Of a stretch of 64,000 bases of DNA, positions 5,117 through 17,660 are shown piece by piece. The first letter of the stretch is position 1, and each line of letters begins with the position of its first letter. Below the pieces are notes generated by a model. It ran no database searches, was not told the origin of the DNA, and saw nothing but the letters and a program-made list of their open reading frames with translations. Origin of the DNA: Rhizobacter sp. (GTDB lineage Bacteria > Pseudomonadota > Gammaproteobacteria > Burkholderiales > Burkholderiaceae_C); NCBI GenBank assembly GCA_025350965.1, contig JANXWV010000055.1, positions 1 through 64,000 on the forward strand, in the 5' to 3' direction. The translations under genes were made by a program, and so were the position numbers.

Positions 5117-7075
5117 TCACCAAGGGTCGATGCCCGCCGCGCGGTCGCCCGCAGGGTCGCGTGACACAGCGGCAGAAGCCAGCCCCTTCACCAGCCACTC
5201 ACGGGTCTGCGCCGGATCGATCACCGCGTCGATCTCCAGCGTGGCCGCCATGTTGATCGCCCTGCCCTTCGCGCAGTGGTCGTCCAGGAGCTGCTGAAAC
5301 AGCGCTTCACGCTGCGGCCCTTCGGGCACAGCCTCTAACTCCTTCTTGAAGCCCAGGTGCACCGCGCCTTCGAGGCCCATGGCCCCGAACTCGCCGCTCG
5401 GCCACGCCACGGTGAACACCGGTGCGTTAAAGCCGCCGGCGGTCATCGCCATCGCGCCCAGCCCATAGCCCTTGCGCAGCACGACCGCGAAGAACGGCAC
5501 GCGCAGGTGGGCCGCCGCCACGAACATCCGGCTGACGTGGCGCACCTGCGCAGTCGCCTCTGCGTCCGGCCCGACCATGAAGCCGGGTGTGTCCACCAGC
5601 GACACCAACGGCAGCCCGTGCGCGTTGCACAGCCGCATGAAGCGAGCCGCCTTGTCAGCGGCGGCAGCGTCGATGGCACCGCCCAGGTGCGCCGGATTGC
5701 TGGCGATCAGCCCGACCGGCCGGCCTTCGATGCGCGCCAGCGCGGTGAAGATGCCGATGCCGAAGCCCACCCGCAACTCCAGCAACGAACCGGTGTCGGC
5801 CACGAGTCGCAGCACCGCCCGCATGTCGTAGCTGCGAGCGCGGTTATGTGGCAACACGTCGCGCAGCAGCAGCGGGTCGGCGGCTTGCCAATCGCTCGTC
5901 GCGCCCTGGAAGTACCCGGGCTGTCCCTGGAAGTCCCCGCGCTGTCCCTGGAAGTACCCTAGGTACTGTCGCGCCACGGCGACCGCCTGCGCCTCGTCGT
6001 CGACCAGCACGTCGATGACGCCGTTTGCGCTTTGCACCCCGCTCGGGCCGATCTGCTCCGGCGTGAACACGCCCAGGCCGCCGCCCTCGATCATGGCCGG
6101 GCCGCCCATGCCGATGTTGCTGGCGTGCGTGGCAATGATCACGTCGCTGCAGCCCAGCAAGGCCGCGTTCCCGGCGAAGCAGCGCCCGGCCACGATGCCC
6201 ACCACCGGCACCTGCCCGCTCAGCCGCGCATAGTTCGCGAAACTCGTGACGTGCAGGCCGGCGACGATGGGCATGTCGACGTCGCCCGGCCGCCCGCCGC
6301 CGCCTTCGGCGAACAGCACGACCGGCAGCCGCTGCTTCAGCGCAATCGCCAGGAGCCGGTCGGTCTTCTGGTGGTTGCGGATGCCCTGCGTGCCGGCCAG
6401 CACGGTCGCGTCGTACGCCATCACGACGCAGCGCGACTTGTCGGCACCGAAGAGCGCTCCGTTGATGCTGCCGATGCCTGTGACCATGCCGTCGGCCGGT
6501 GTGTTGGCGATCAGGTCGGCCTGGGTGCGGCGGCTGGCCTGGGCCGCGAGCGCGAGTGCGCCGTATTCGATGAAGCTGCCACCGTCGCACAGGTCGGCGA
6601 TGTTCTCGCGCGCGGTGCGCTGGCCGCGCGAACGGCGCCGGGCCACTGCCTCGGGGCGCTGCGCATCGAGCGTGAAGGCATGGCGAGCGAGCACGTCCTG
6701 AAGGTCGGCCCGCAGCGCCGGGGCGGCCCGCGATGGGTTCAGCGGCGACGGGTTCGGCATTGGCTGGTCGGGCGGCGCTGCATTCGGTTGCACGGCATGT
6801 GCCGATGCCGCTGATGCCGTGCCAGCAGCCCGTGCAAGGGCCGGCGCGAGCGCACCCAGGTGCATCAGCACATCGCCTTCGGCCACCAGCTCGCCCGCGC
6901 GGGCGCTGACGTGCAGCACCTGCGCGTCGACGCCGCTGCGCAGCTCGTGCTCCATTTTCATCGCCTCGATCACGACCAGCACGTCGCCGGCCCGCACCGT
7001 TTGGCCCGGTGCCGCCAGCACCTCGACCACGGTGCCCGCCATCGGCGCGTGGATGTCTTGTTGCGTCTGCGCCAT
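5117..7075 (-). CDS. Acyl-CoA carboxylase: biotin carrier fused to carboxyltransferase
   Basis: A 652-residue fusion. Residues 1-75 are a biotinyl domain with EAMKMEH, placing the biotinylated lysine at K40. An Ala/Pro linker (about 75-115) follows, then a full carboxyltransferase (about 120-640) of the propionyl/methylcrotonyl/geranyl-CoA carboxylase beta type, with the crotonase-like GG and LGGAIDAAAADKAARF segments. No biotin carboxylase subunit is adjacent, so the ATP-dependent half-reaction must be supplied elsewhere; the acyl substrate cannot be read from sequence. Residues about 371-390 hold a 7-residue triplicate (GYFQGQR, GDFQGQP, GYFQGAT) from a 21-bp repeat, an unusual insertion in a conserved enzyme. 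The start is 55 bases after the stop of the SARP/STAND regulator. Confidence 0.85.
   Translation of the reverse strand: MAQTQQDIHAPMAGTVVEVLAAPGQTVRAGDVLVVIEAMKMEHELRSGVDAQVLHVSARAGELVAEGDVLMHLGALAPALARAAGTASAASAHAVQPNAAPPDQPMPNPSPLNPSRAAPALRADLQDVLARHAFTLDAQRPEAVARRRSRGQRTARENIADLCDGGSFIEYGALALAAQASRRTQADLIANTPADGMVTGIGSINGALFGADKSRCVVMAYDATVLAGTQGIRNHQKTDRLLAIALKQRLPVVLFAEGGGGRPGDVDMPIVAGLHVTSFANYARLSGQVPVVGIVAGRCFAGNAALLGCSDVIIATHASNIGMGGPAMIEGGGLGVFTPEQIGPSGVQSANGVIDVLVDDEAQAVAVARQYLGYFQGQRGDFQGQPGYFQGATSDWQAADPLLLRDVLPHNRARSYDMRAVLRLVADTGSLLELRVGFGIGIFTALARIEGRPVGLIASNPAHLGGAIDAAAADKAARFMRLCNAHGLPLVSLVDTPGFMVGPDAEATAQVRHVSRMFVAAAHLRVPFFAVVLRKGYGLGAMAMTAGGFNAPVFTVAWPSGEFGAMGLEGAVHLGFKKELEAVPEGPQREALFQQLLDDHCAKGRAINMAATLEIDAVIDPAQTREWLVKGLASAAVSRDPAGDRAAGIDPW
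5904..5963 (-). repeat. In-frame 21-bp triplication inside the carboxylase gene
   Basis: Three copies of CCCTGGAAGTNCCC plus a variable spacer (21, 21 and about 18-24 bases) lie head to tail inside the carboxyltransferase coding region. The unit length is a multiple of three, so copy changes would keep the frame and add or remove seven residues. Confidence 0.8.
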
Positions 7076-7130: not shown

Positions 7131-9995
7131 TCAGGCCGGCGGTTGCAGTGACTGCGCCGCCAGGTCCAGCGCTTCGGCCAAAGTCATGGTGGCAGCACTC
7201 GCCCATGCGCGCTCGGTGGCAGCCGGGCCGATCTGCACGCGGATCAGGCGACGCACCTGCTCGACGTAACGCAGGTCGCTGTCGATCAGCGCGCTGAAGT
7301 TGGCGGTCCAGTAGCGCGCGCTGTAGGCCATCAGCCGGGCAGCCAGCTCGGGTTGGCGCCGGTGCGCGATGGGGCGCGCCAGGTTCCACAGGCCGAAGCC
7401 CATCATGTAGCGGTTCTGCAGCCGGGCCGAGCCGACGGCGCAGCGCGCGAAGGCCTGCTCGGCGTCGCGCCAGCGCACCATGTACGCGAACAGAAAGCCC
7501 TGCACGTTGGCCAGTTCGGGCAACGCGGCCACGTCGCCAGCGGCGATGAAGCGGCGCTCGCACTCGGCCAGTAGCAGCATCGCCGTCTCGTAGCGGTGCA
7601 GCTTGGCGTGGCAGTTCGCCTTGGTGAAGAGCATGCGGTTCGCATGGTGTTCGATGCCTGCCGCCTCGTACAGCTGTTGGGCGCGGCCGAACAGCGCGAT
7701 GGCCTCGTCCGACTTGCCATCGAGGTGGAAGGCCATGGTCGCGAGCAGCGCCGTCACGCCGGCCTCCAGCTCGACCGCGTGTTCCTGGCGCGCCAGGGCC
7801 ATCGCTTCGTCGAGCAGCGGGCGCATGCCAGCATCCCCGCGGGAACGCTCCCAATGCTGGCGTGCCTGCGCCAGCAGCGCAGCCGCACGCAGCGCGGGCT
7901 GTTGGCCCGCGAGTGCGAGCGCGCGGGTGGCGTGCGACTGCGCGGCCTCGCTCTCGCCCGCCACCAGCAAGGCCGCCCGCAGCACCAGGTGAGCGTGCAC
8001 CAGCAAGGCCTCGGAGCCACCCGCTTCGGCGGTCGACGCGGTCGACGCGGGCGCTGCGGGCGCTGCGCCGCCATGCTGCAGCAGCGCGCGCTCCATCAGC
8101 GAACGCACTTGCACCGGCATGCCGTGCTGATCCCACTCGCCGCGCAGGGCCACGCCCATGGCCAGAGCGAGCAGCGGCTCGGTGTCATCCACGGCCGTCT
8201 GCACGGCCTCGATAAAGTTCGGCAGCTCGTCGCGCGGTGCGGCCTGGCTGCGCTGCCCGAGCGTCAACGCGCAGGCCAGGAAGTGCGCGCGGTGGCGTTG
8301 GCGCAGCCGCTTGGCATCGGCCGGCAGAAGCTGCTCGTGCAGGAACTCGCGGATCATCTCCAGCATGAAGAAGCGCATCGACCCACTGGCATCGGCGTCG
8401 CTGGTCAGCAGCGAATCGGCGGTGAGTTCTTCGAGCAAGGCATGCGCGTTCGGCTCGTCGCTGATGGCTTGCGCACCCTGCGCCGACGAGCCGCCGCGAA
8501 ACACCGACAGCGCCATCAGGAAGCGCTGCTGCGACTGCGCCAGCAGCTGCCAGCTCCAGTCGATGGCCGCGCGGAGTGAATCGTGCCGGGCGCTGCCATT
8601 CACGCTGGCGCCTGCACCCCGCGCCGCGCTGCGGGCGAGCAAGCTGAACCGCTGGGCCAGCGCGGCGTGCATGTCGCTCGGCGAGAACGCGCGGCTGCGC
8701 GAGGCCGCCAGCTCGATGGCCAGCGGCAGGCCTTCGAGTGCACGGCACAGCGTGGCCAGGGCCTCGTGGTTGCGCGCGGTGACCTGGAAGTCGGGCCGCA
8801 CGCTGCGCGCCCGGTCCACGAAGAGCGACACGCTGGGGCTGCGCGCCACCTGCTCGACACTGCCGTGCGGCTCGGGCTGCGGCAAGGGTTGCAATGCCAG
8901 TTCGTGCTCGCCGGCCAGGCCGAGCACGCGCCGCGTGGTGACGAGCACATGCAGTTGGGCTGCGCCAGCGAGCAGCGCCTCGACCACGTTCACGCCGCCG
9001 GCCTGCACGAGCTGCTCGAAGTTGTCGAGCACGAGCAGCGCGCGCTGGCCGCGCAGCATCGCAATCACCTGCTCCAGCGGGTCACCGGGTGCGCGCGGAA
9101 GCGCGAGTGCCACGCGCAACTGCGTGGCCATCTGCGCAGCGTCGCGGCAGTCGGCCAGCGCAGCGAAAGCGACGCAGTCGAAGCCCTTCGCCGCACGGGC
9201 CACCTCAACGGCGAGGCGCGTCTTGCCGCAGCCCCCGGTGCCATGCAGCGTGACGAGCCGGTGCTGCGCGGACAGGTCGCGCAACTGCTCACGCTCGGCA
9301 CTGCGCGCGAAGAAGGTGGTGAGGTAGCTGGGCAGCACCGGCGAAGCCTGCGGCCACGGAACACTCGGTTCGATCTGCCCGCCGGGCCACGGAGTGGCGG
9401 CTGCGCCGGGTGCATCGGTTGGCGGGGCCGCGGGCTGGCCGGCACGTGCTTCGGCCTCGGCCACGCGGTCGAACAAGGCGGCGAGGCGGGCGCGTTCGTC
9501 CTGCACCCAGTCGTCGTAGAAACCGGGCAGCAGTTCGCCCCGGTACAACGAACGGGCCCGCTCGGTGTGGCCGGCGCGCACCGCACGCTCGAACTCGAGT
9601 GCATCGCAGGTGCAGGCGCCCGCCGCCAGGCGCACGCTTTGCCGGTCGGCCACCAGCACCGCGCCGGCACCCACACCCGGCGGCTCCAGCATGCGGCGCA
9701 GCGACGAGATCGCATTGCGCAGCCGGTTGCGGCCCACGTCGAGTTCGACCCCGGGCCACAGGTGCTCGACCAGTTCTTCGCGCGCGTGGTGGCGGTCGGG
9801 CGCCAGCACCAGCCGGGCCAGCAGTGCTGCGATCGGCTGGCTCACGAAGTGGGTCAAGGCGAGCTGGCCGTTGCGCGCTTCCAGCGCTCCGAGCACCCGC
9901 ACGTTCCACTGCCCAGCCAGAGGCTCGGCGGCGGCGGCAGGCAAGGGCTGGCGGGGTGACGTGGCGGACGGCATCGACATGGGCATTTGCGCCAT
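7131..9995 (-). CDS. SARP/BTAD-STAND ATPase transcriptional regulator
   Basis: A 954-residue AfsR/LuxR-MalT-style signal-transduction ATPase. Residues 30-130 are an OmpR-like winged-helix domain and 130-185 a bacterial transcriptional activation (BTAD) helical domain. From 228 comes an NB-ARC/STAND module with Walker A GTGGCGKT (252-259), Walker B LLVLDNFEQL and a TTRRVLGLAGE sensor segment. About 450 C-terminal residues follow with TPR-like helices that probably sense a ligand or partner. It most likely binds DNA and activates transcription after ATP-dependent opening. The carboxylase gene follows 55 bases downstream on the same strand, making it a plausible target or operon partner. SARP-type regulators are commoner in actinobacteria, but stand-alone versions occur in proteobacteria. 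Confidence 0.85.
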   Translation of the reverse strand: MAQMPMSMPSATSPRQPLPAAAAEPLAGQWNVRVLGALEARNGQLALTHFVSQPIAALLARLVLAPDRHHAREELVEHLWPGVELDVGRNRLRNAISSLRRMLEPPGVGAGAVLVADRQSVRLAAGACTCDALEFERAVRAGHTERARSLYRGELLPGFYDDWVQDERARLAALFDRVAEAEARAGQPAAPPTDAPGAAATPWPGGQIEPSVPWPQASPVLPSYLTTFFARSAEREQLRDLSAQHRLVTLHGTGGCGKTRLAVEVARAAKGFDCVAFAALADCRDAAQMATQLRVALALPRAPGDPLEQVIAMLRGQRALLVLDNFEQLVQAGGVNVVEALLAGAAQLHVLVTTRRVLGLAGEHELALQPLPQPEPHGSVEQVARSPSVSLFVDRARSVRPDFQVTARNHEALATLCRALEGLPLAIELAASRSRAFSPSDMHAALAQRFSLLARSAARGAGASVNGSARHDSLRAAIDWSWQLLAQSQQRFLMALSVFRGGSSAQGAQAISDEPNAHALLEELTADSLLTSDADASGSMRFFMLEMIREFLHEQLLPADAKRLRQRHRAHFLACALTLGQRSQAAPRDELPNFIEAVQTAVDDTEPLLALAMGVALRGEWDQHGMPVQVRSLMERALLQHGGAAPAAPASTASTAEAGGSEALLVHAHLVLRAALLVAGESEAAQSHATRALALAGQQPALRAAALLAQARQHWERSRGDAGMRPLLDEAMALARQEHAVELEAGVTALLATMAFHLDGKSDEAIALFGRAQQLYEAAGIEHHANRMLFTKANCHAKLHRYETAMLLLAECERRFIAAGDVAALPELANVQGFLFAYMVRWRDAEQAFARCAVGSARLQNRYMMGFGLWNLARPIAHRRQPELAARLMAYSARYWTANFSALIDSDLRYVEQVRRLIRVQIGPAATERAWASAATMTLAEALDLAAQSLQPPA

Positions 9996-10153
9996 GCCGA
10001 CGCAGGTGCCGGCGTGGCGCTAGGCCGATGGTAGCCAAGGCTTCGCGCTGCGGGCCCCCGCGACTGAGTGGGTCGCCGGCTCGCCGCGCGAGCCCCGCCA
10101 TCGCGTGCGGCCGGCAGGCCGGTGCGGTGGTCGATGCCCGAGTGGCGCCCACG

Positions 10154-10585
10154 TCAAGGCGGCTTGGCAAGCGCCGCTGGCGCGTTGATCGTGATACCGC
10201 GCTGGCGCAGTTGTTCGACGATGGCCCGGGCGTTCGGGTTGCCCTCGGCCGCCAGCTTTGCGGTCGCCGAGGCAACTGCATCGAGCGCCGCACGCACCTT
10301 GGCGGCTCCCTGGACCTGCGTGTCCAGCGCCGCCTGGGCGTTGCCGAGCTGCTGCCGCTCGGCCAGCAACTGCACCGACTGGAAGCCGAACCAGCCGGTC
10401 ATGCCGAACGCCAGCAGCAGCATCGGCACGAAGCCGGAACGCTCCGCCTGCGCACGCGCGGCCGGCACCGCGGGGGCTGCGCGCAGCCGTGGCGCCATTG
10501 CCGGCACGGCACTCGGCTGCGCATGCACACTCGGTTGAATGTGCGGCGCACCGACAGGGTGGGCCTGCCCTGCAGCGGCGCTCAT
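10154..10585 (-). CDS. Small single-pass membrane protein, second of a related pair
   Basis: A 143-residue protein with a Pro/Ala/His-rich N-terminus (1-50), one hydrophobic helix (about 52-70) with a GWFGF turn, an Ala/Gln-rich predicted coiled coil (72-115), and a C-terminal NARAIVEQLRQRGITINAPAA segment. Its start overlaps the stop of the gene before it by four bases (ATGA), indicating translational coupling. The C-terminal region resembles the upstream partner (NDAQVLNMLAAQGLSVSVNAPAA), so the two look like diverged duplicates. I do not recognise a named family. Position suggests a job in the inner membrane alongside the PEP-CTERM protein encoded first in the unit. Confidence 0.75.
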   Translation of the reverse strand: MSAAAGQAHPVGAPHIQPSVHAQPSAVPAMAPRLRAAPAVPAARAQAERSGFVPMLLLAFGMTGWFGFQSVQLLAERQQLGNAQAALDTQVQGAAKVRAALDAVASATAKLAAEGNPNARAIVEQLRQRGITINAPAALAKPP

Positions 10586-10914
10586 TTCGCGCCCTTGCGC
10601 GTTGCCACGTCGGCGCCGCCTGCTGCGGGTGCCGTGGGTGCCGCGGGTGCATTCACGCTGACGCTCAGCCCCTGCGCCGCCAGCATGTTCAGCACCTGCG
10701 CGTCGTTGCCCTTCACGCCAAGTTCGGCCAGTGCCTTGACCATCTCGCGGTACAGGGCCTCATGCCCGCCCGCCTGCTGCACCAACAGCTGGTTCTGATT
10801 CAGAACCCCTTGATCGGCACGGTTCTGCGTGAAGAGCCAACCGTTGGACGCCGCCAGCAGCACGGTCAAAGCGCCCAAGCCGGTCAACAGATTGAATTGC
10901 CAGGTCGACAACAT
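10582..10914 (-). CDS. Small single-pass membrane protein, first of a related pair
   Basis: A 110-residue protein with a hydrophobic helix at about 7-24 (LLTGLGALTVLLAASNGWLF), a Gln/Asn-rich predicted coiled coil, and a C-terminal tail. Two ATGs are possible. The inner one at 10914 is chosen because AAGGG lies nine bases before it, while the outer one at 10923 has the same purines almost touching it. The gene begins 27 bases after the PEP-CTERM gene and ends overlapping its paralogue, so all three form one transcription unit. Function is unknown. A periplasmic C-terminus anchored by the N-terminal helix is the likeliest topology. Confidence 0.75.
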   Translation of the reverse strand: MLSTWQFNLLTGLGALTVLLAASNGWLFTQNRADQGVLNQNQLLVQQAGGHEALYREMVKALAELGVKGNDAQVLNMLAAQGLSVSVNAPAAPTAPAAGGADVATRKGAK

Positions 10915-10941
10915 GGTGTGCATCCCTTGCTCGGGCGGTGG

Positions 10942-13900
10942 TCAGGCAGCGTCCGCCATCGCCTTCGCACGGCGCGCGCGCCCCACGCCGACGAGACCGA
11001 GCAGGCCGATGAAGATCATCAGGTTCGTGCCAGGCTCGGGGATGGCGTTGATGCCGACGACGCTGCCGTGCAGCACGAGCGTGGTGTCGAACAGAGCGGC
11101 GTTGTAGCCGCTGGCGTTGCTGCCGAAGGCGTGCAGCGTGATCGTGTCATCGAACGTTCCCAGCGTGCCGCTGGCAAAGCTCACCAGCGGGCCGCTCTGC
11201 GCCGCGCCGGCGCCGAGGCCCGAGAACGGGCCGAAGCCGCTCAAGCTGAACTCTGCCCCGACGCCCGACACATCGAACGAGCCGGCCAGCAGGTCCGCCA
11301 GGCCCGACGCCCCGTTGAGCACCTGCAGCGCATCGGTCAAGCTGGCGCTGCCGAGGGTCAGCGTGCCGAAGTCCAGTGTGTAGGCGTTGCCCACGTGCGA
11401 GAGCGTGGCCGCTCCGCTGGTCTTGGCCAGCGCCGCCTGCGCGTAGTTGTTGACCTGACCCTTGAGCGTGATGAGCGTGGAGCTGAGCGGCAGATCGCTC
11501 ATGTCGGCGTTGTGGCTCGCGAATGCGGCCGTGGCCGAGCCGGTGAAGAGGCCAGACGCCGCCGTGGTAAGGCCGGCCTGGAAGCTCGTGGCATCGCTGC
11601 CCTGCGCCGCCACACCGGCCAGCGTGCCACTCGCCGTGAACGGCCCGGTGGCGCTGCCGAGCGTGCCGCGCAGCACGTCGTTCAGCGCCGTGCTCGGGGC
11701 CGCGTTGCCGACCGACACACCTTGTGTGGCAACCACATCGCCGGTGTGCACGATGCCGAAGTCGATTGACGCAGTGTTCACTTGGGCTACCGCCGCCGCG
11801 TACACCTTGCCGCTGACGCTGACCTGCTGTGAGGCCAGCGTGAGCTGGCAGTTCGGCGCGCAGTTGCCGACGTTGCTCGCGTCGGACACGAGCGAGAGCG
11901 TGGCGCTGCCGGCGTTGGCGCCGGTGAAGTTGCCTGCGACCGCGGTGCTCAGGCCGACGCTGAGCTGGCTCGCGCTGGTGCCGGCCGGGTTGAGCAAGCT
12001 GAAACTGCCGCTGGCCGTGACCGGTACACCGTTGCTTGCGATGCTGGCATTCAGCGCAGCCTGCGGCGCGACAGTCGCCTGGTTCGTGATGCTCACGAAC
12101 GCGCTGGGCGACGCATCGCCAACGCGGCGCGCGCCGAAGTCGATGGCCGGGTTGTTGACAACCGGGCTGGCCTGGTTGATGACGTTGGCCTGCGCCTGGA
12201 TCGTGCCCGCCACACCGTAGTTCTGGCTGCCGGCAGCGGCCGTACCCAGGCCGTTGCTCACGCCGTTCACGGCCCCGGCCGTCGTGTAGTTCACCGCGAT
12301 GCCGCCGCTCACCGCGCCGGCGGAGGCGGTGTTCACCGTCACTGTCATTGCGCCGTTGCCGGCCGTGCTGTTGCTGCCCGCCAGAATGCCAGCGAGCGTG
12401 CCCGTGCCGCTGATGATCGATGCGCTGGCGCCGGTCGATGCCCCGAAGCTCGCGTTGAGGTCTTCGACGAAGCCGGCCGCACCCGTGGCGGTGTTGCGGA
12501 TCACCAGGGCCTGGCTCACCAGTTGCCCGACCTGCACCGTGCCGAAGTTCAGTGCCGCAGTCTGGATCGCACCGCTGGCCGCCTGGAAGACGTTGCCGTT
12601 GACCGTGACCACCTGCGTGCCCACGCTTGCTGTGCCCAGGCCGTTGCTGACACCGGCCACCGCACCGGCCGTCTGGTAGGCGAGCGTCACGCCGCCCGTG
12701 CGCGCGCCGGCGGCGGCCGTGTTCACACCCACGGTGATCGCCCCGCTGCCGGTGTTGCCCGTACCCGCCAGCCGGCCGAGCACCGCACCGCTGGCCGTGG
12801 CCGCGCCGCTGGTGCTACCGACCGCTGCATTCAGGTCTTCGCTGAATGCGCCTGCCGTCGCGGTGTTCGAGATCGCGAGCGCTGCAGTGTTGGCCCCGCC
12901 GACGCGCTGGTTGGCGATCTGCACCGGCGAAGCGCTGCTGCCGACGGCCGCGTTGAACGCTGCGGCGCCGCCGGCGATCACGATGTTCAGCTTCTGGTCC
13001 GCGATGTTGCTGAAGTTGCTCGTCAGATTCAGCACCTGGCCGGTGAGCGGGGCCAGCACGCCGGCACTGGCCGTCGTGAAGGTCACGCCGAGGTTGCCGG
13101 TGTTGCTGCCGGCCGGGCCGGTGTTGTAGTTGCCGGCGGTCACGCCAGCGCCGCTCAGGCGCGCATCGGTCAGGTTCGCGCCGTTCACGTTCGTCTGGAT
13201 CGCACCGCGCAGCGACGGGCCGGTGCTGCCGGTGTTCGCGACCTGGTAGTTGTAGGTCGTGGCACCGACGCGCATGTTGCCCAGCGTGAGCGTGGCGTTG
13301 GCGGTGGCACCGTTCGTCACGCCGGTGCCGGTGATGGCCTGCGCCGCATCGCCGCCAGCCACGATCAGGCCGGCGCCGTTGACGCCGGCGCGGCGGTCGA
13401 ACACGTTGCCGGTGCCAGCGACGACGCTGGTGTAGTCGTTGGTGATGGTCAGGTTCTGCGTGCCGATGTTCAGCGTCGAGCCGGCCCCGCCCACGACGAG
13501 CTTGCCTTGCGTGTTGGCGGCGTTGGCGAGGGTGAGAATGCCAGCCGAATCGACCCGCAGGGTGCCGGTTCCGGTAACGCCGTTGGCGAGGCTCAGCGTG
13601 CCGTTCTGGGCGCGCATCGTGCCGTTGTTGGTCACTGCACCGTTGACGCTCACGCTGATCGTGCCGCCACCGTCGGCGTTGATGGTGCCGTTGTTCGTCA
13701 GGCTAGCCGCACCCCCTACGAAGGACTGCAGGCCGATCAGGCCGTTCTGGCCACGCACCGTCACGCCCGAGCCGAGCACGAGGTTGCCGGCCTCGAGGTT
13801 GAGCCGGTTGGAGCCGGCGTTGTCGGCGAACACGATGCTGCCGGTGCCGCCGATGGTCTGGTCGCCTTGCGACGCGAGGATGCTGTTCTGGCCGATCTTG

Positions 13901-16203
13901 ATCGTGCCGTTCAGCGTCATGCCGCCGGCCGAGATGCGCTCGATGCCGGTTGCGCCAGCCATGTCGAGCACGCCGTTGAGCGTCACGCCGTTGAGGTAGT
14001 TGCTATTGCCGTTGGTGGCGTTGAAGACGCCTGAGCCGATCGAATTGAGCACACCACCGGTGATGACGGCGCCGTTCAGAAGAACCACGCTGCCTGCGTC
14101 GGCGAGCATCACGCCGGCACTGTTGTCATAGCCGCCGCCAGCGGTCAGCACGAGTGTGCCGCCGTTCTGCGCGCGCATCGTTCCATTGTTGGTGACCACG
14201 CCGTTGACGGCGAGCGTGATCGTGCCGCCGTTCACGTCGGCACTGATGTTGCCGTTGTTGGTGAGCGTGGAGGCGCCACCGACGAACGATTGCCCGCCGA
14301 TGGTGCCGTTGTTGCCACGCACCGTGATGCCGCTGCCGAGCGTGAGGTTGCCGCCCTCCATATTGAACCGGTTGCTGCCGGTGTTGTCGGCGAACACGAT
14401 GCTGCCGGTGCCGCTGATCGTCTGGTCGCCTTGCGGCGCGAGGACGCTGTTCTGGCCGATGTTGATCGTCGCGTTGTTCAGCGTGAGGCCGCCCACGACA
14501 CGCTCGATGCCGGTGGCCGAGGCGAGATCGAGCGTGCCGGCGTACGTGACGCCGTTGAAGAAGTTGTTGCCGTTGTTGCTGGCGCGGAAGGTCCCGCTGC
14601 CGGTGGTGTTGATGGCGCCGGTGAGGGTAACGCCGTTCTGCAGCACGGTGGAGCCGGCGCCAGCGAGGATCTGGCTGCCGCTGTTGCCCTGCACGTTGGA
14701 GTTGAGCAGAAGCGTGCCGCCATTCAATGCCGACAGCGTGCCGTTGTTGGTGACCAGGCCGTTGACGGCAAGCATGATCGTGCCGCCGCCCACGTCGGCA
14801 CTGATGGTGCCGTTGTTCGTGAGCGTGGAGGCGCCAGCGGCGAACGATTGCCCGCCAATGGCGCCGGTGTGGCCACGCACCGTGATCCCGCTGCCGAGCG
14901 TGAGGTTGCCGCCCTCCACATTGAGCCGGTTGCTGCCGGCGTTGTCGGCGAACACGATGCTGCCGCTGCCGCTGATGGTCTGGTCACCTTGCGGCGCGAA
15001 GACGCTGTTCTGGCCGATGTTGACGGCGCCGTTGAGAACCAAGCCGCCGGTCACGCGCTCGATGCCGGTGGCCGTGGCCAGGTCGAGCGCGCCGGTGAAG
15101 CTGACGCCGTTGAAGAAGTTGCCTCCGCTGTTGCTGGCGCGGAACGAGCCGGAGCCCGCATTGGTGATCGTGCCGTTCAGGGCCACGCCGTTCTGGATCA
15201 CCGTGCTCCCGGCGCCGGCGACGATCTGGCTGCCCACGCCGCCGTTGATGCTGTTGTTGAGCAGCAGCGTGCCGCCGTTTTGCGCCGATAGCGTGCCGTT
15301 GTTGGTGACCGCACCGTTGACGGCGAGCGTGATCGTGCCGCCACTCACGTCGGCGCTGATCGTGCCGTTGTTGGTGAGCGTCGAGGCGCCACCGATGAAC
15401 GATTGCCCGCCGATGTAGCCCGTGTCGCCACGCACCGTGATACCCGAGCCGAGCGTGAGGTTGCCAGCCTCCACATTGAACCGGTTGCTGCCTGCGTTGT
15501 CGGCGAACACGATGTTGCCGGTGCCGCTGAAGGTCTGGTCGCCCTGCGGCGCGAGAACGCTGTTCTGGCCGATCTTGATCGTGCCGTTGAGCACCATGCC
15601 GCCGGCCGAGATGCGCTCGATGCCGGTGCCGCCCGACATGTCGAGCACGCCGTTGAGCGTGACGCCGTTCAGGAAGTTGCTGCCGCTGTTGAAGGCCACC
15701 AGCGCACCGCTGCCGGTGCTGTTGATCGTGCCGCCGGTGATGGTGCTGCCGAACTGGTTGGCCACGCTGCCGGCACCGATGTTGATCACGCCGCCAGTGT
15801 TGTCGACGTTGTGGCCGCCGGAGATCTGAAGCGCCGCCGTGCTCGGGCCGCCGACGTTGATCGTGCCGGTGTTGGTGGTGCTGCCGCCACCCTGCAGCGT
15901 GAACGTGAATGCATCGATGTTGATGCTGCCGGCGTTGGTCAGGCCGAGTACGGACTGCCCGACATCAATGGTGACAGTTTTGCCGATCGCGATGGTTGCG
16001 GTGTCACTCCCCGGGCCGGTCGGCACGATCCCGCACGACCAGTTGCCCGCGCTGCCCCAGTTGCCGGTGGCCGGGTTCCAGGTGCAACTGGCGGCCTCGG
16101 CCTGCTGCAGGGTCGCGGTGCCGGCGACGATCATCGCCGCGACGGCGAGCGCGGTTTTCCTGAAAGTGCTGTGGCGCTTGCTGTTGATGTGCTGGCTGGT
16201 CAT
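10942..16203 (-). CDS. Giant repetitive exported protein with PEP-CTERM anchor
   Basis: A 1,753-residue surface or matrix protein. A signal peptide with LAVAAMIVAGTATLQQAEA near the N-terminus leads into a CTWNPATGNWGSAGNWSCG segment typical of autotransporter-like repeats. Four tandem copies of a roughly 186-residue Gly/Asn/Thr-rich beta-repeat follow (marker GSNRFNVEAGNLTLGSG). Then come about five choice-of-anchor D modules (ALNFGTVQVGQLVSQALVI type) and a C-terminal IPEPG, hydrophobic helix and RARRAK tail, which is a PEP-CTERM sorting signal for exosortase. In the start region GGGGAG sits eight bases before the ATG at 16203, so the longer frame from 16260 is rejected. No exosortase lies in the window. 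Such proteins are tied to exopolysaccharide and biofilm formation; the exact role here is inferred. Confidence 0.85.
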   Translation of the reverse strand: MTSQHINSKRHSTFRKTALAVAAMIVAGTATLQQAEAASCTWNPATGNWGSAGNWSCGIVPTGPGSDTATIAIGKTVTIDVGQSVLGLTNAGSINIDAFTFTLQGGGSTTNTGTINVGGPSTAALQISGGHNVDNTGGVINIGAGSVANQFGSTITGGTINSTGSGALVAFNSGSNFLNGVTLNGVLDMSGGTGIERISAGGMVLNGTIKIGQNSVLAPQGDQTFSGTGNIVFADNAGSNRFNVEAGNLTLGSGITVRGDTGYIGGQSFIGGASTLTNNGTISADVSGGTITLAVNGAVTNNGTLSAQNGGTLLLNNSINGGVGSQIVAGAGSTVIQNGVALNGTITNAGSGSFRASNSGGNFFNGVSFTGALDLATATGIERVTGGLVLNGAVNIGQNSVFAPQGDQTISGSGSIVFADNAGSNRLNVEGGNLTLGSGITVRGHTGAIGGQSFAAGASTLTNNGTISADVGGGTIMLAVNGLVTNNGTLSALNGGTLLLNSNVQGNSGSQILAGAGSTVLQNGVTLTGAINTTGSGTFRASNNGNNFFNGVTYAGTLDLASATGIERVVGGLTLNNATINIGQNSVLAPQGDQTISGTGSIVFADNTGSNRFNMEGGNLTLGSGITVRGNNGTIGGQSFVGGASTLTNNGNISADVNGGTITLAVNGVVTNNGTMRAQNGGTLVLTAGGGYDNSAGVMLADAGSVVLLNGAVITGGVLNSIGSGVFNATNGNSNYLNGVTLNGVLDMAGATGIERISAGGMTLNGTIKIGQNSILASQGDQTIGGTGSIVFADNAGSNRLNLEAGNLVLGSGVTVRGQNGLIGLQSFVGGAASLTNNGTINADGGGTISVSVNGAVTNNGTMRAQNGTLSLANGVTGTGTLRVDSAGILTLANAANTQGKLVVGGAGSTLNIGTQNLTITNDYTSVVAGTGNVFDRRAGVNGAGLIVAGGDAAQAITGTGVTNGATANATLTLGNMRVGATTYNYQVANTGSTGPSLRGAIQTNVNGANLTDARLSGAGVTAGNYNTGPAGSNTGNLGVTFTTASAGVLAPLTGQVLNLTSNFSNIADQKLNIVIAGGAAAFNAAVGSSASPVQIANQRVGGANTAALAISNTATAGAFSEDLNAAVGSTSGAATASGAVLGRLAGTGNTGSGAITVGVNTAAAGARTGGVTLAYQTAGAVAGVSNGLGTASVGTQVVTVNGNVFQAASGAIQTAALNFGTVQVGQLVSQALVIRNTATGAAGFVEDLNASFGASTGASASIISGTGTLAGILAGSNSTAGNGAMTVTVNTASAGAVSGGIAVNYTTAGAVNGVSNGLGTAAAGSQNYGVAGTIQAQANVINQASPVVNNPAIDFGARRVGDASPSAFVSITNQATVAPQAALNASIASNGVPVTASGSFSLLNPAGTSASQLSVGLSTAVAGNFTGANAGSATLSLVSDASNVGNCAPNCQLTLASQQVSVSGKVYAAAVAQVNTASIDFGIVHTGDVVATQGVSVGNAAPSTALNDVLRGTLGSATGPFTASGTLAGVAAQGSDATSFQAGLTTAASGLFTGSATAAFASHNADMSDLPLSSTLITLKGQVNNYAQAALAKTSGAATLSHVGNAYTLDFGTLTLGSASLTDALQVLNGASGLADLLAGSFDVSGVGAEFSLSGFGPFSGLGAGAAQSGPLVSFASGTLGTFDDTITLHAFGSNASGYNAALFDTTLVLHGSVVGINAIPEPGTNLMIFIGLLGLVGVGRARRAKAMADAA
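13620..15780 (-). repeat. Four tandem repeats of about 558 bp in the PEP-CTERM gene
   Basis: The same marker sequence TGTCGGCGAACACGAT recurs at 13821, 14385, 14943 and 15498, giving spacings of 564, 558 and 555 bases. Surrounding sequence is closely related in every copy, and units differ by small in-frame changes. This is a long tandem array that could expand or contract by recombination. Confidence 0.9.
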
Positions 16204-16262
16204 GTGGTGGCTCCCCGGGGCGCGGTGGTGGTTCGGATACTTGGGGGTGAGGATTGCCACCT

Positions 16263-16280
16263 ACCGTTAAGCAACCGTTA
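16263..16280 (-). promoter_or_regulatory. Paired 7-bp direct repeat upstream of the PEP-CTERM gene
   Basis: ACCGTTA occurs twice with an 11-base period (one helical turn) 60-77 bases upstream of the PEP-CTERM start. On the coding strand it reads TAACGGT twice. The spacing suits a dimeric regulator bound to one DNA face. No matching regulator can be named, and I could not find a convincing sigma-54 promoter here. Confidence 0.35.
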
Positions 16281-16294
16281 GAAAAGCACACGCG

Positions 16295-16334
16295 AACGCC
16301 ACCGAATCACCCCCAGGTCAGGGGGGTCGGCGTT
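16295..16334 (-). terminator. Long inverted repeat after dadA
   Basis: Nested inverted repeats (outer AACGCC/GGCGTT, inner ACCCCC/GGGGGT) form a hairpin 60 bases past the dadA stop. On the minus strand, seven to nine bases after the hairpin, comes TGCTTTTCT, a weak T-tract. It probably separates dadA transcription from the PEP-CTERM unit. Confidence 0.45.
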
Positions 16335-16394
16335 AGATGCGGGGGTGGCGCAGGGTGGGTTTCTACCGAGCGGCCGGGCGCCGCTGCGCCATGC

Positions 16395-17660
16395 TCAGGC
16401 GTAGGCGCGCGGGTAGCGGTCGACAGTGAGGCCGTCGAGGTCGATGCCGGGTTTTCGCCCGGAGATCACGTCGGCCATGACGCGGCCGGTGCCTGCGGCC
16501 ATGGTCCAGCCGAGCGTGCCGTGGCCGGTGGCGAGGTACAGGTTGGGCAGCCGCGTCGCACCGACGATGGGCGTGCCGTCGGGCGTCATCGGGCGCAGGC
16601 CGCACCAGAACTCGGCGCGCGACACATCGCCACCCTGCGGGAACAGGTCGGTGACCACATGCGCCAGCGTCTGGCGCCGGGCTTCGTGCAGCTTCAGCGT
16701 GTAGCCGGCCAGCTCGGCCGTGCCGCCAACGCGAATGCGCTGGCCCAGGCGCGTGACGGCGACCTTGTGCGTCTCGTCCATCACGGTCGATTCGGGCGCG
16801 CCCGCCGCATCGGTGATGGGCACGGTGATCGAGTAGCCCTTCACCGGGTACACCGGCAGGCGAATGCCCACGGACTTGAGCAGCAGCGGCGAATGGCTGC
16901 CCAGTGCCACGAGGTACGCGTCGGCCTTCAGCACGCCGGCATCTGTTGCCACGCCCTCGATGCGGTGGCCGGCGTGCACCAGCTTGCCGATGCGCGTGCC
17001 GTAGCGGAACTGCACGCCGCGCTTGACGGCCAGCGCCGCCAGGTTCTGCGTGAACTTGAAGCAGTCACCGGTCTCGTCGCCGGGCAGCAGCAGGCCGCCG
17101 ACGAACTTGTCGCGCACCCGTGCAAGCGCGGGTTCGTGGCGCAGGCAGCCAGCCACGTCAAGCAGCTCGTAAGCCACGCCGTAACGCTTGAGGATGGCGA
17201 TGTCGGCGGCCGTGCCGTCGAGCTGCGCCTGGGTGCGAAAGAGTTGCAGCGTGCCTTGCATGCGCTCGTCGTACGCGATGCCGGTCTGCGCCCGAAGCTC
17301 TTTGAGGCAATCACGGCTGTATTCGGCCAGGCGCACCATGCGGCCCTTGTTCAGCTCGTAGCGCGCGGCAGTGCAGTTGCGCAGCATGGCCAAGCCCCAG
17401 CGCACGAGGTTCAGGTCGAGCGTGGGGCGGATGACGAGCGGGCGGTGTTGCATCAGCAGCCACTTGATCGCCTTGATCGGCACGCCCGGCCCGGCCCATG
17501 GCGCCGAGTAACCGGGCGACACCTCGCCGGCGTTGCCGTAGCTGGTTTCCAGCGCGGCGGCCGGTTGCCGGTCGACCACCGTGACCTCGTGGCCGGCAAG
17601 CGCGAGCTGGTAAGCCGCGGTCACGCCGATGACACCACTGCCGAGTACAAGCACCTTCAT
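16395..17660 (-). CDS. dadA: D-amino acid dehydrogenase, small subunit type
   Basis: A 421-residue FAD flavoprotein that oxidises D-amino acids, mainly D-alanine, to 2-oxo acids plus ammonia and passes electrons to the respiratory chain at the inner membrane. The N-terminus carries the dinucleotide-binding [18 protein letters not shown] and the [20 protein letters not shown] segment typical of DadA. The C-terminus has [14 protein letters not shown] and [14 protein letters not shown]. Length matches the family (about 415-435). The frame is open to 17795, but the ATG at 17660 places the Rossmann motif at residue 3, as in homologues, with GGAG ten bases upstream. It is divergent from the aldo/keto reductase gene. 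No alanine racemase (dadX) lies beside it. Confidence 0.92.

Follow-up and report, generated by a model that had tools for sequence, protein, structure and literature searches.

The window (the whole 64,000-nucleotide stretch of Rhizobacter sp. DNA that was analysed) carries three consecutive open reading frames on its minus strand, which had been picked out in a first-pass annotation. The first encodes a 1,753-aa, apparently exported repeat protein with choice-of-anchor D modules and a PEP-CTERM-like tail (10942..16203; hereafter the giant), and the other two encode small one-helix membrane proteins: small1 (10582..10914), of 110 aa, with an N-terminal membrane helix, a helical region and a conserved C-terminal segment, and small2 (10154..10585), of 143 aa, with a membrane helix, a helical region and a conserved GN.NA...V..L..RGITIN-like segment. 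All three reading frames were judged real, as were the 27-base gap between giant and small1 (with the small1 start at 10914) and the 4-base overlap of small1 and small2. An alternative in-frame ATG at 10923 would lengthen small1 to 113 aa and narrow the gap to 18 bases. A search of the minus strand from 9800 to 16700 for consensus promoter and terminator sites found none.

The N-terminus of the giant has the typical look of a signal peptide when the translation is read by eye (approximately 37 aa; 16093..16203, minus strand). Against the NCBIfam model NF012200 the whole protein scored 112.8 bits over four stretches (cut-off 45), the best module being residues 1197-1310 (12274..12615, minus strand), and by this curated cut-off the giant is a choice-of-anchor D protein. 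A repeat of about 186 aa was also apparent by eye, with the word GQNS recurring at residues 212, 397, 583 and 771; self-BLAST at E 1e-10 returned only the full-length self match, and a tandem repeat finder run with periods up to 500 bases reported no repeat in the gene. Towards its end a conserved C-terminal domain (profile A7; 10966..11448, minus strand) leads into the sorting tail (10969..11046, minus strand), where a PEP motif, a hydrophobic stretch and a basic cluster are visible by eye. The tail scored 17.9 bits with PF07589, under the cut-off of 20.7, and TIGR02595 did not appear among the matches of the window giant at E<=1. Among four giant homologues scanned, three passed TIGR02595 (22.6, 23.4 and 24.0 bits against 16) and in the fourth (G060) it was not listed. 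The signal-peptide-like start and the three-part form of the tail, both as read by eye, resemble those of the PEP-CTERM/exosortase (EpsH/XrtA) system, and the giant is a putative substrate for exosortase sorting.

Beyond the pair lies a recurrent fourth gene (7131..9995, minus strand) encoding a 954-aa protein with an NB-ARC/STAND ATPase domain (PF00931, 29 bits against 23.5), probably a regulator. Such a gene followed the pair in seven loci, namely the window, G004, L166, L168 (where a contig end leaves only small2 in view), L169, L170 and G127 (itself cut by a contig end). In G517 the next gene encodes the PEP-CTERM-system protein PrsT (TIGR02917, 650.7 against 312.2 bits), a further likeness to the exosortase system.

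Relatedness and predicted structure of the small proteins

The first-pass annotation had described a C-terminal pattern common to both small proteins, N-[DP]-A...L...G-[LI]-[ST]-x-NAPAA, and this resemblance was found to exceed chance. A profile-profile comparison using 20 sequences of each protein gave E 5e-6 at a probability of 86%, where earlier comparisons with smaller profiles had been weak (22% and 10%). Scored with the small1 profile, 20 real small2 proteins gave a median that 1 of 1000 shuffled copies reached; in the converse test, with the small2 profile on small1 proteins, 4 of 1000 did so. These comparisons indicate that small1 and small2 are probably distant paralogues. Neither window protein matched a Pfam or NCBIfam family over its cut-off, and a Pfam scan of nine small1 and nine small2 members yielded only GspL_C (E 0.0038) under E 0.01; the two are protein families unnamed in the libraries searched.

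Single-chain models of small1 and small2 predict a helix of 62-66 residues, a break and a short helix, at mean pLDDT values of 68 and 78 (moderate confidence). The net charges flanking the membrane helix do not point clearly to one topology. For small2, nothing was found among solved structures by sequence at E<=0.1, nor by a fold search with its model at E<=0.001. In the PDB the small1 profile hit mainly designed helical repeats, the best of them at E 2.9e-8 over 23 residues, with a weak further match to interferon gamma (E 0.0048); both were read as helical composition and set aside.

Two known pairs of small proteins were compared. FtsB and FtsL, both small, span the membrane once, extend long helices outside the cytoplasm and act together, and the likeness of the small pair to them is one of analogy, drawn from the single-chain models; as a difference, no such Pfam family was matched and none appeared in the small2 structure search. 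The Rz/Rz1 spanins likewise have small overlapping genes, and small2 gave a weak PHROGs match to this group (E 0.007). However, Rz1 requires a lipobox cysteine and neither window small protein contains cysteine, so the spanin reading was rejected.

Recurrence of the three-gene order

Searches of proteobacterial genomes located 38 pair loci, under record titles that include Rhizobacter, Rubrivivax, Rhodoferax, Ideonella and Ca. Accumulibacter. Three lie at contig ends, where the presence of a giant could not be judged, and were left out. In 24 of the 35 remaining loci (the window and 23 further) a giant stands directly upstream of the pair, so that the three-gene order, which the first-pass annotation had proposed to look for in other genomes, does recur. 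In the other 11 no giant adjoins the pair, one of these pairs being decayed. The earlier view is upheld in part: an uncharacterised three-gene unit exists, its order recurs, though not exclusively, and the small pair looks paralogous, while a role of the pair in exporting, anchoring or regulating the giant, as then suggested, is one that it may have.

Within a sample of 399 genomes of the family, strong small1 matches occurred in eight, and in all eight a giant adjoins a pair; a phylum sample of 299 genomes added no further strong carrier, and a plasmid search with small1 gave no match. Several weaker candidates were discarded as chance matches: L006-L009 after inspection, and G345 (22 bits with small1, within a 436-aa frame), G1277 (20.9 bits) and G049 (20.8 bits) by score and reading-frame length only. 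Matches in G066, G135 and G373 (30-31 bits) were judged by score to be ordinary PEP tails and not giants.

With start codons chosen by hand, the gap between giant and small1 ranged from -4 to 107 bases (13 loci) and that between small1 and small2 from -8 to 28 bases (20 loci). A sigma-54 motif, sought with one consensus, appeared in one of eight stretches (L117), a poor test given that two of the eight precede lone pairs and that for L023 the stretch used lay beyond the frame start.

The genes might simply travel as a cassette, the pair having no role with the giant. The patchy distribution, with strong matches in so few genomes of the family, would fit such linkage, as would the scatter of giant-less pairs over several branches of the tree (6 Fitch changes; the tree comes from a small alignment, and several deep branches have support < 50). 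Against it, the gene order is kept among loci whose small proteins share only 31-65% identity with those of the window, and dN/dS was below 1 in all 22 comparisons (0.10-0.68; small alignments, three with dS > 1). We regard linkage without function as quite improbable. That the arrangement recurs in some two dozen related genomes suggests a helper role, so far unrecognised, of the small pair in handling such giants.

A large exoprotein followed by small genes also recalls contact-dependent inhibition, in which the very large CdiA precedes a small immunity gene, cdiI, and a variable C-terminal toxin is matched by a cognate, variable immunity gene. In contrast, the giant has a conserved C-terminus that ends in a sorting tail, not a variable domain, and the small proteins are membrane proteins, probably paralogous, that are conserved across loci. 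PADLOC models gave no match at E<=0.1. Since both the C-terminus of the giant and the small proteins are conserved, we rejected this reading, and a toxin with two immunity proteins can be considered highly implausible here.

Exosortases and pairs without a giant

Of 19 pair genomes tested, 17 carry exosortase (PF09721), another point of likeness to the EpsH/XrtA system; none turned up in G426 (87% complete) or G933 (97% complete). Of ten enzymes classified, six scored over the cut-off as XrtA, two as XrtB and one as XrtD (G826), and the tenth (G780) passed general models only. Both XrtB enzymes belong to the host genome of the window (G000), which has three PF09721 matches over cut-off. Exosortase was also present in five of seven comparison genomes, which were a non-random choice, so that the co-occurrence of exosortase and pair discriminates little.

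Giants and pairs also occur apart. The first-pass annotation had held that small genes found in unrelated contexts, with no PEP-CTERM partner, would speak against the unit, and this objection applies in part because giant-less pairs exist, including a second pair beside polA in the host genome itself. For the lone-pair genomes G974, G826 and G869, no giant C-terminal domain was detected at E<=0.001; in L155, L159, L171 and L178 the absence of a giant was judged by the C-terminal profile only; and tblastn at E<=1e-3 detected no giant remnants in seven lone loci. At the Accumulibacter locus L178 the pair is decayed, with no giant within 5.7 kb upstream, and adjoins a murJ-like gene (by eye) at which L158 keeps an intact unit. 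Conversely, giants with an A7-type C-terminal domain occur without a pair in G419 and G300, and G517 holds two further pair-less giant copies with the same domain.

In the genus g39, pairs persist without an adjacent giant at dN/dS 0.14-0.46 (12 comparisons), and by these ratios the lone pair in one lineage is kept under purifying selection. Such persistence would fit a pair that is an independent envelope scaffold, unconnected with export, with the giant as the surface-exposed portion of some larger structure; FtsB/FtsL and PilN/PilO are examples of scaffolds of this kind. Three of nine small1 proteins weakly resemble the periplasmic domain of GspL, to which the GspL_C match above belongs, and the spanin-like match of small2 points the same way, but both resemblances are near noise, and an unrelated scaffold would hardly seem likely to adjoin the giant as often as the pair does (24 of 35 loci). 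We consider a scaffold unlikely.

Alternatively, the pair might be a general exosortase accessory serving many PEP-CTERM-type substrates, and its place beside the giant would then reflect only that the giant is the most demanding or most expressed of them. The presence of exosortase in most of the pair genomes tested, in several classes (XrtA, XrtB and XrtD), is consistent with such breadth, and so are lone pairs in exosortase-bearing genomes that have no A7-type giant. On the other hand, no exosortase gene was seen in the fetched stretches around the pairs, and the five exosortase-bearing comparison genomes (G009, G008, G345, G419 and G300) have no accepted pair. A general accessory is a reading that we consider rather doubtful.

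A possible handling step for exosortase substrates

Our preferred reading, offered tentatively and at somewhat short of an even chance, is that a membrane-anchored helical pair docks or holds a giant exosortase substrate during export. Small1 and small2 would have been born of an ancient duplication, each anchored by a membrane helix near the N-terminus, with a long helix extending away from the membrane and a conserved segment in the C-terminal part. They may pair with one another in the manner of the bitopic coiled-coil proteins FtsB and FtsL. Once the giant had been exported through Sec, the pair would dock or hold it on the periplasmic side, so that it stayed fit to be processed by exosortase and to move onward, and with this two-protein helper the repeat protein would reach the cell surface or matrix via exosortase. 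Pair copies without a giant may serve other exosortase substrates in trans. In favour of this reading are the frequent adjacency of giant and pair, the short gaps between the genes, the exosortases of most carriers tested, PrsT beside the G517 unit, the likely paralogy, the modelled helices, the dN/dS ratios and the decayed, giant-less locus L178; against it are the pairs that lack a giant, the giants that lack a pair, the carriers G426 and G933, the exosortases of the comparison genomes and the absence of exosortase genes from the fetched stretches around the pairs. In its most specific form, which we think possible though on balance improbable, the pair would be an exosortase-sorting adaptor: two paralogous helical proteins, anchored in the membrane as a heterodimer, would capture giants and present them for processing, sometimes in trans.

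The unit differs from what has been described for related systems. Most known PEP-CTERM proteins appear to lie in single-gene operons (PMC1569441). In Aquincola tertiaricarbonis the PEP-CTERM protein PepA, which has a role in floc formation, is encoded near prsT, with pepA upstream and a putative terminator between, and the part of that report available to us does not mention a small pair (PMC9850573). More broadly, PEP-CTERM proteins have been linked with the flocs and granules that wastewater bacteria form (PMC9850573, PMC12019908). The literature searched, which covered few subscription journals and some sources in part, held no mention of a paralogous small membrane pair, a difference from the PEP-CTERM/exosortase system as known, and described no dedicated client-handling component of the pathway. 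To our knowledge, the handling of exosortase substrates after export is poorly known. If the adaptor reading is true, the small pair would be such a dedicated component, encoded together with its main client, and the conserved unit in Ca. Accumulibacter, Rubrivivax and their relatives offers a small, testable candidate for a post-export handling step.

The giant gene and its small partners

The giant gene (16203-10942, minus strand) encodes 1,753 residues with a signal-peptide-like start, repeats, choice-of-anchor D modules and a PEP-CTERM tail; a repeat of ~186 residues occurs four times, as judged by eye and from the spacing of one word. The tail of the window copy scored under the Pfam cut-off and was absent from its NCBIfam matches, and the NCBIfam tail cut-off was passed by three of the four homologous giants scanned. 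The whole unit lies on the minus strand, where the gap of 27 bases between the giant and small1 and the four-base overlap of small1 with small2, both reported in the first-pass annotation, were confirmed. A scan of 9800-16700 found no sigma-70-like sites and six terminator-like sites, every one on the plus strand. The next gene downstream of small2 encodes an NB-ARC/STAND-type protein of 954 residues (7131-9995, minus strand). At 5117-7075 (minus strand) the translation suggested, by eye, a biotin-carrier-like N-terminus fused to a carboxyltransferase-like protein.

The giant is of known kinds (PEP-CTERM-type, choice-of-anchor D). For the small pair, no Pfam or NCBIfam model scored over its cut-off on the window copies, and no description was found in the literature searched. 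Aligned over 20 copies each, small1 and small2 both display a single membrane helix and a helical stretch, and their C-terminal segment is conserved. AlphaFold models of the two (mean pLDDT 68 and 78) predict one 62-66-residue helix, separated by a break from a short one; charge gave no topology call for either. Comparison of small1 and small2 profiles returned probabilities of 22% (3+3 sequences), 10% (9+9), 89% (13+13) and 86% (20+20), and their relatedness was backed by a shuffle control. Judged from sequence, the two are probably distant paralogues, a reading tempered by the contribution that helical composition makes to the score. Among solved structures nothing convincing was found for small2 by sequence or fold, and a match of small1 to designed helical repeats (best E 2.9e-8, 23 residues) was attributed to composition.

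Recurrence of the unit and of lone pairs

A small1 search of 399 genomes from the same family gave matches in nine at E<=0.001, of which eight were kept; the match in G345 (22 bits, inside a 436-residue frame) was set aside as chance. The class sample (369 genomes) added four pair genomes and the order sample (349 genomes, small2 query) seven, with a 20.8-bit match in G049 from the latter set aside. The phylum sample (299 genomes) yielded no additional strong carrier, a 20.9-bit match in G1277 being set aside. Combined, the four taxon samples hold 20 pair loci in 19 genomes. With small2 as query, the genome_contigs collection (described as covering 84,980 species) separately returned 27 loci: nine on contigs that, judged by their length, were already in the taxon samples, and 18 new ones, among them loci in Ca. 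Accumulibacter, Rubrivivax and Ideonella records.

The giant lies directly upstream of small1 at 13 of the 20 sample loci (the window, G004 from the genus of the window, G171, G426, G127, G060, G174, G236, G464, G517, G751, G968 and G795; split over two frames in G464 and G751) and is absent from seven (a second copy in the host genome, G780, G933, G1032, G974, G826 and G869). Profile searches of the 27 genome_contigs loci placed a giant upstream in 16 and none in eight (L155, L159, L160, L171, L174, L175, L177 and L178, the pair being decayed in the last); L162, L165 and L168 were not judgeable, as the contig edge was reached and small1 was not seen. Upstream sequence spans only ~430 bases in L155 and ~340 in L171, and a different gene fills that space. 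The combined total is 38 loci: 24 with a giant, 11 without and three not judgeable at contig edges. The proposed three-gene order recurs in other genomes, and its frequency (24 of 35 judgeable loci) was not built in by the search, because the pair rather than the giant served as query. Occurrence of the small genes apart from such a partner had been named as evidence against the unit; this was the case at the 11 giant-less loci and not at the 24.

The second pair of the host genome (4.3 Mb, 155 contigs, 87.7% complete) lies on contig C80 (L004, 7499-8145), by eye flanked by polA on one side and a gene of divergent orientation on the other, and shows 62% and 57% identity to the window pair; neither a giant nor, by tblastn, a giant remnant was found beside it. 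Five of the 11 giant-less loci (L111, L113, L114, L116 and L171), all of one lineage, have the same surroundings next to a prolyl isomerase (recognised by a PPIC domain scan for L111 and by eye for the others). In Accumulibacter, the decayed pair (L178, 5786-6279) has no giant and a relative (L158, 5669-6264) keeps an intact unit; by eye, both adjoin the same murJ-like gene.

On a 34-tip tree, which leaves out L178 with its decayed pair and the three pairs at contig edges, lone pairs required six Fitch parsimony changes, and 36 of 2000 label shuffles gave as few; lone pairs are therefore clustered, yet on several branches. Values of dN/dS were 0.10-0.68 over 22 comparisons (dS above 1 in three) and 0.14-0.46 in 12 comparisons within g39, a genus of lone pairs. 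An alternative reading is that the pair forms an independent envelope scaffold.

At six other loci the pair is directly followed by a homologue of the window STAND-type protein (G004, L166, L169, L170, L168, with small2 alone in view, and G127, where the homologue is cut by the contig end), so that this protein may belong to the unit as a fourth member across part of its distribution. In G517 the unit is directly followed by a PrsT-family TPR protein belonging to the PEP-CTERM system (L036, 4997-7351); in G464 an ExbB-like gene (MotA_ExbB domain) and an ExbD-looking gene, the latter by eye, come after the unit (L035, 3591-5066).

Exosortases and giants without the pair

The exosortase family PF09721 was found in 17 of the 19 pair genomes (11 of 12 plus 6 of 7), with none found in G426 and G933, and in five of seven non-random comparison genomes (G009, G008, G419, G300 and G345; not in G003 and G123). 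Ten exosortases from nine genomes were classified: six XrtA, two XrtB (both in the host genome) and one XrtD over cut-off, and a tenth (G780) that passes general exosortase models only. G826, of the prolyl-isomerase lineage, has an XrtD (VPLPA) exosortase. The three exosortase matches of the host genome lie on contigs other than that of the window, and tblastn with the extracted exosortases gave no match in 47 fetched loci, which include eight second copies and two giants without a pair (L078, L079) and do not include the window. Six additional tail-like matches, all weak (20.9-23.7 bits), lie on other contigs of the host genome, which therefore probably has other PEP-CTERM proteins.

A profile of the C-terminal 165 residues of the giants (A7; 11 rows, among them giants of the eight pair genomes) matched 14 of the same 399 family genomes at E<=1e-6: the eight pair genomes, G419, G300 and G123 strongly, and G066, G135 and G373 weakly (30-31 bits). 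In G419 and G300 the giants have no pair downstream, and the small1 search was also without match there; in G123 the match is a short piece close to the end of a contig, so that its downstream side was not judgeable. G517 has two more giants without a pair. Among lone-pair genomes, the domain was not found in G974, G826 and G869, G933 and G780 have just weak tail-like matches, and in G1032 split pieces lie on other contigs and end in a VPLPA-like tail. Given lone pairs and pairless giants, neither partner strictly needs the other. The pair could alternatively be a general exosortase accessory.

Taken together, there is good support for a conserved unit made up of a giant substrate of the exosortase type plus a helical membrane pair. 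Linkage, architecture and the content of the genomes lead us to infer that the most economical function of the pair is that of a helper for giant exosortase substrates, which would usually be encoded alongside its client giant and may sometimes act in trans.
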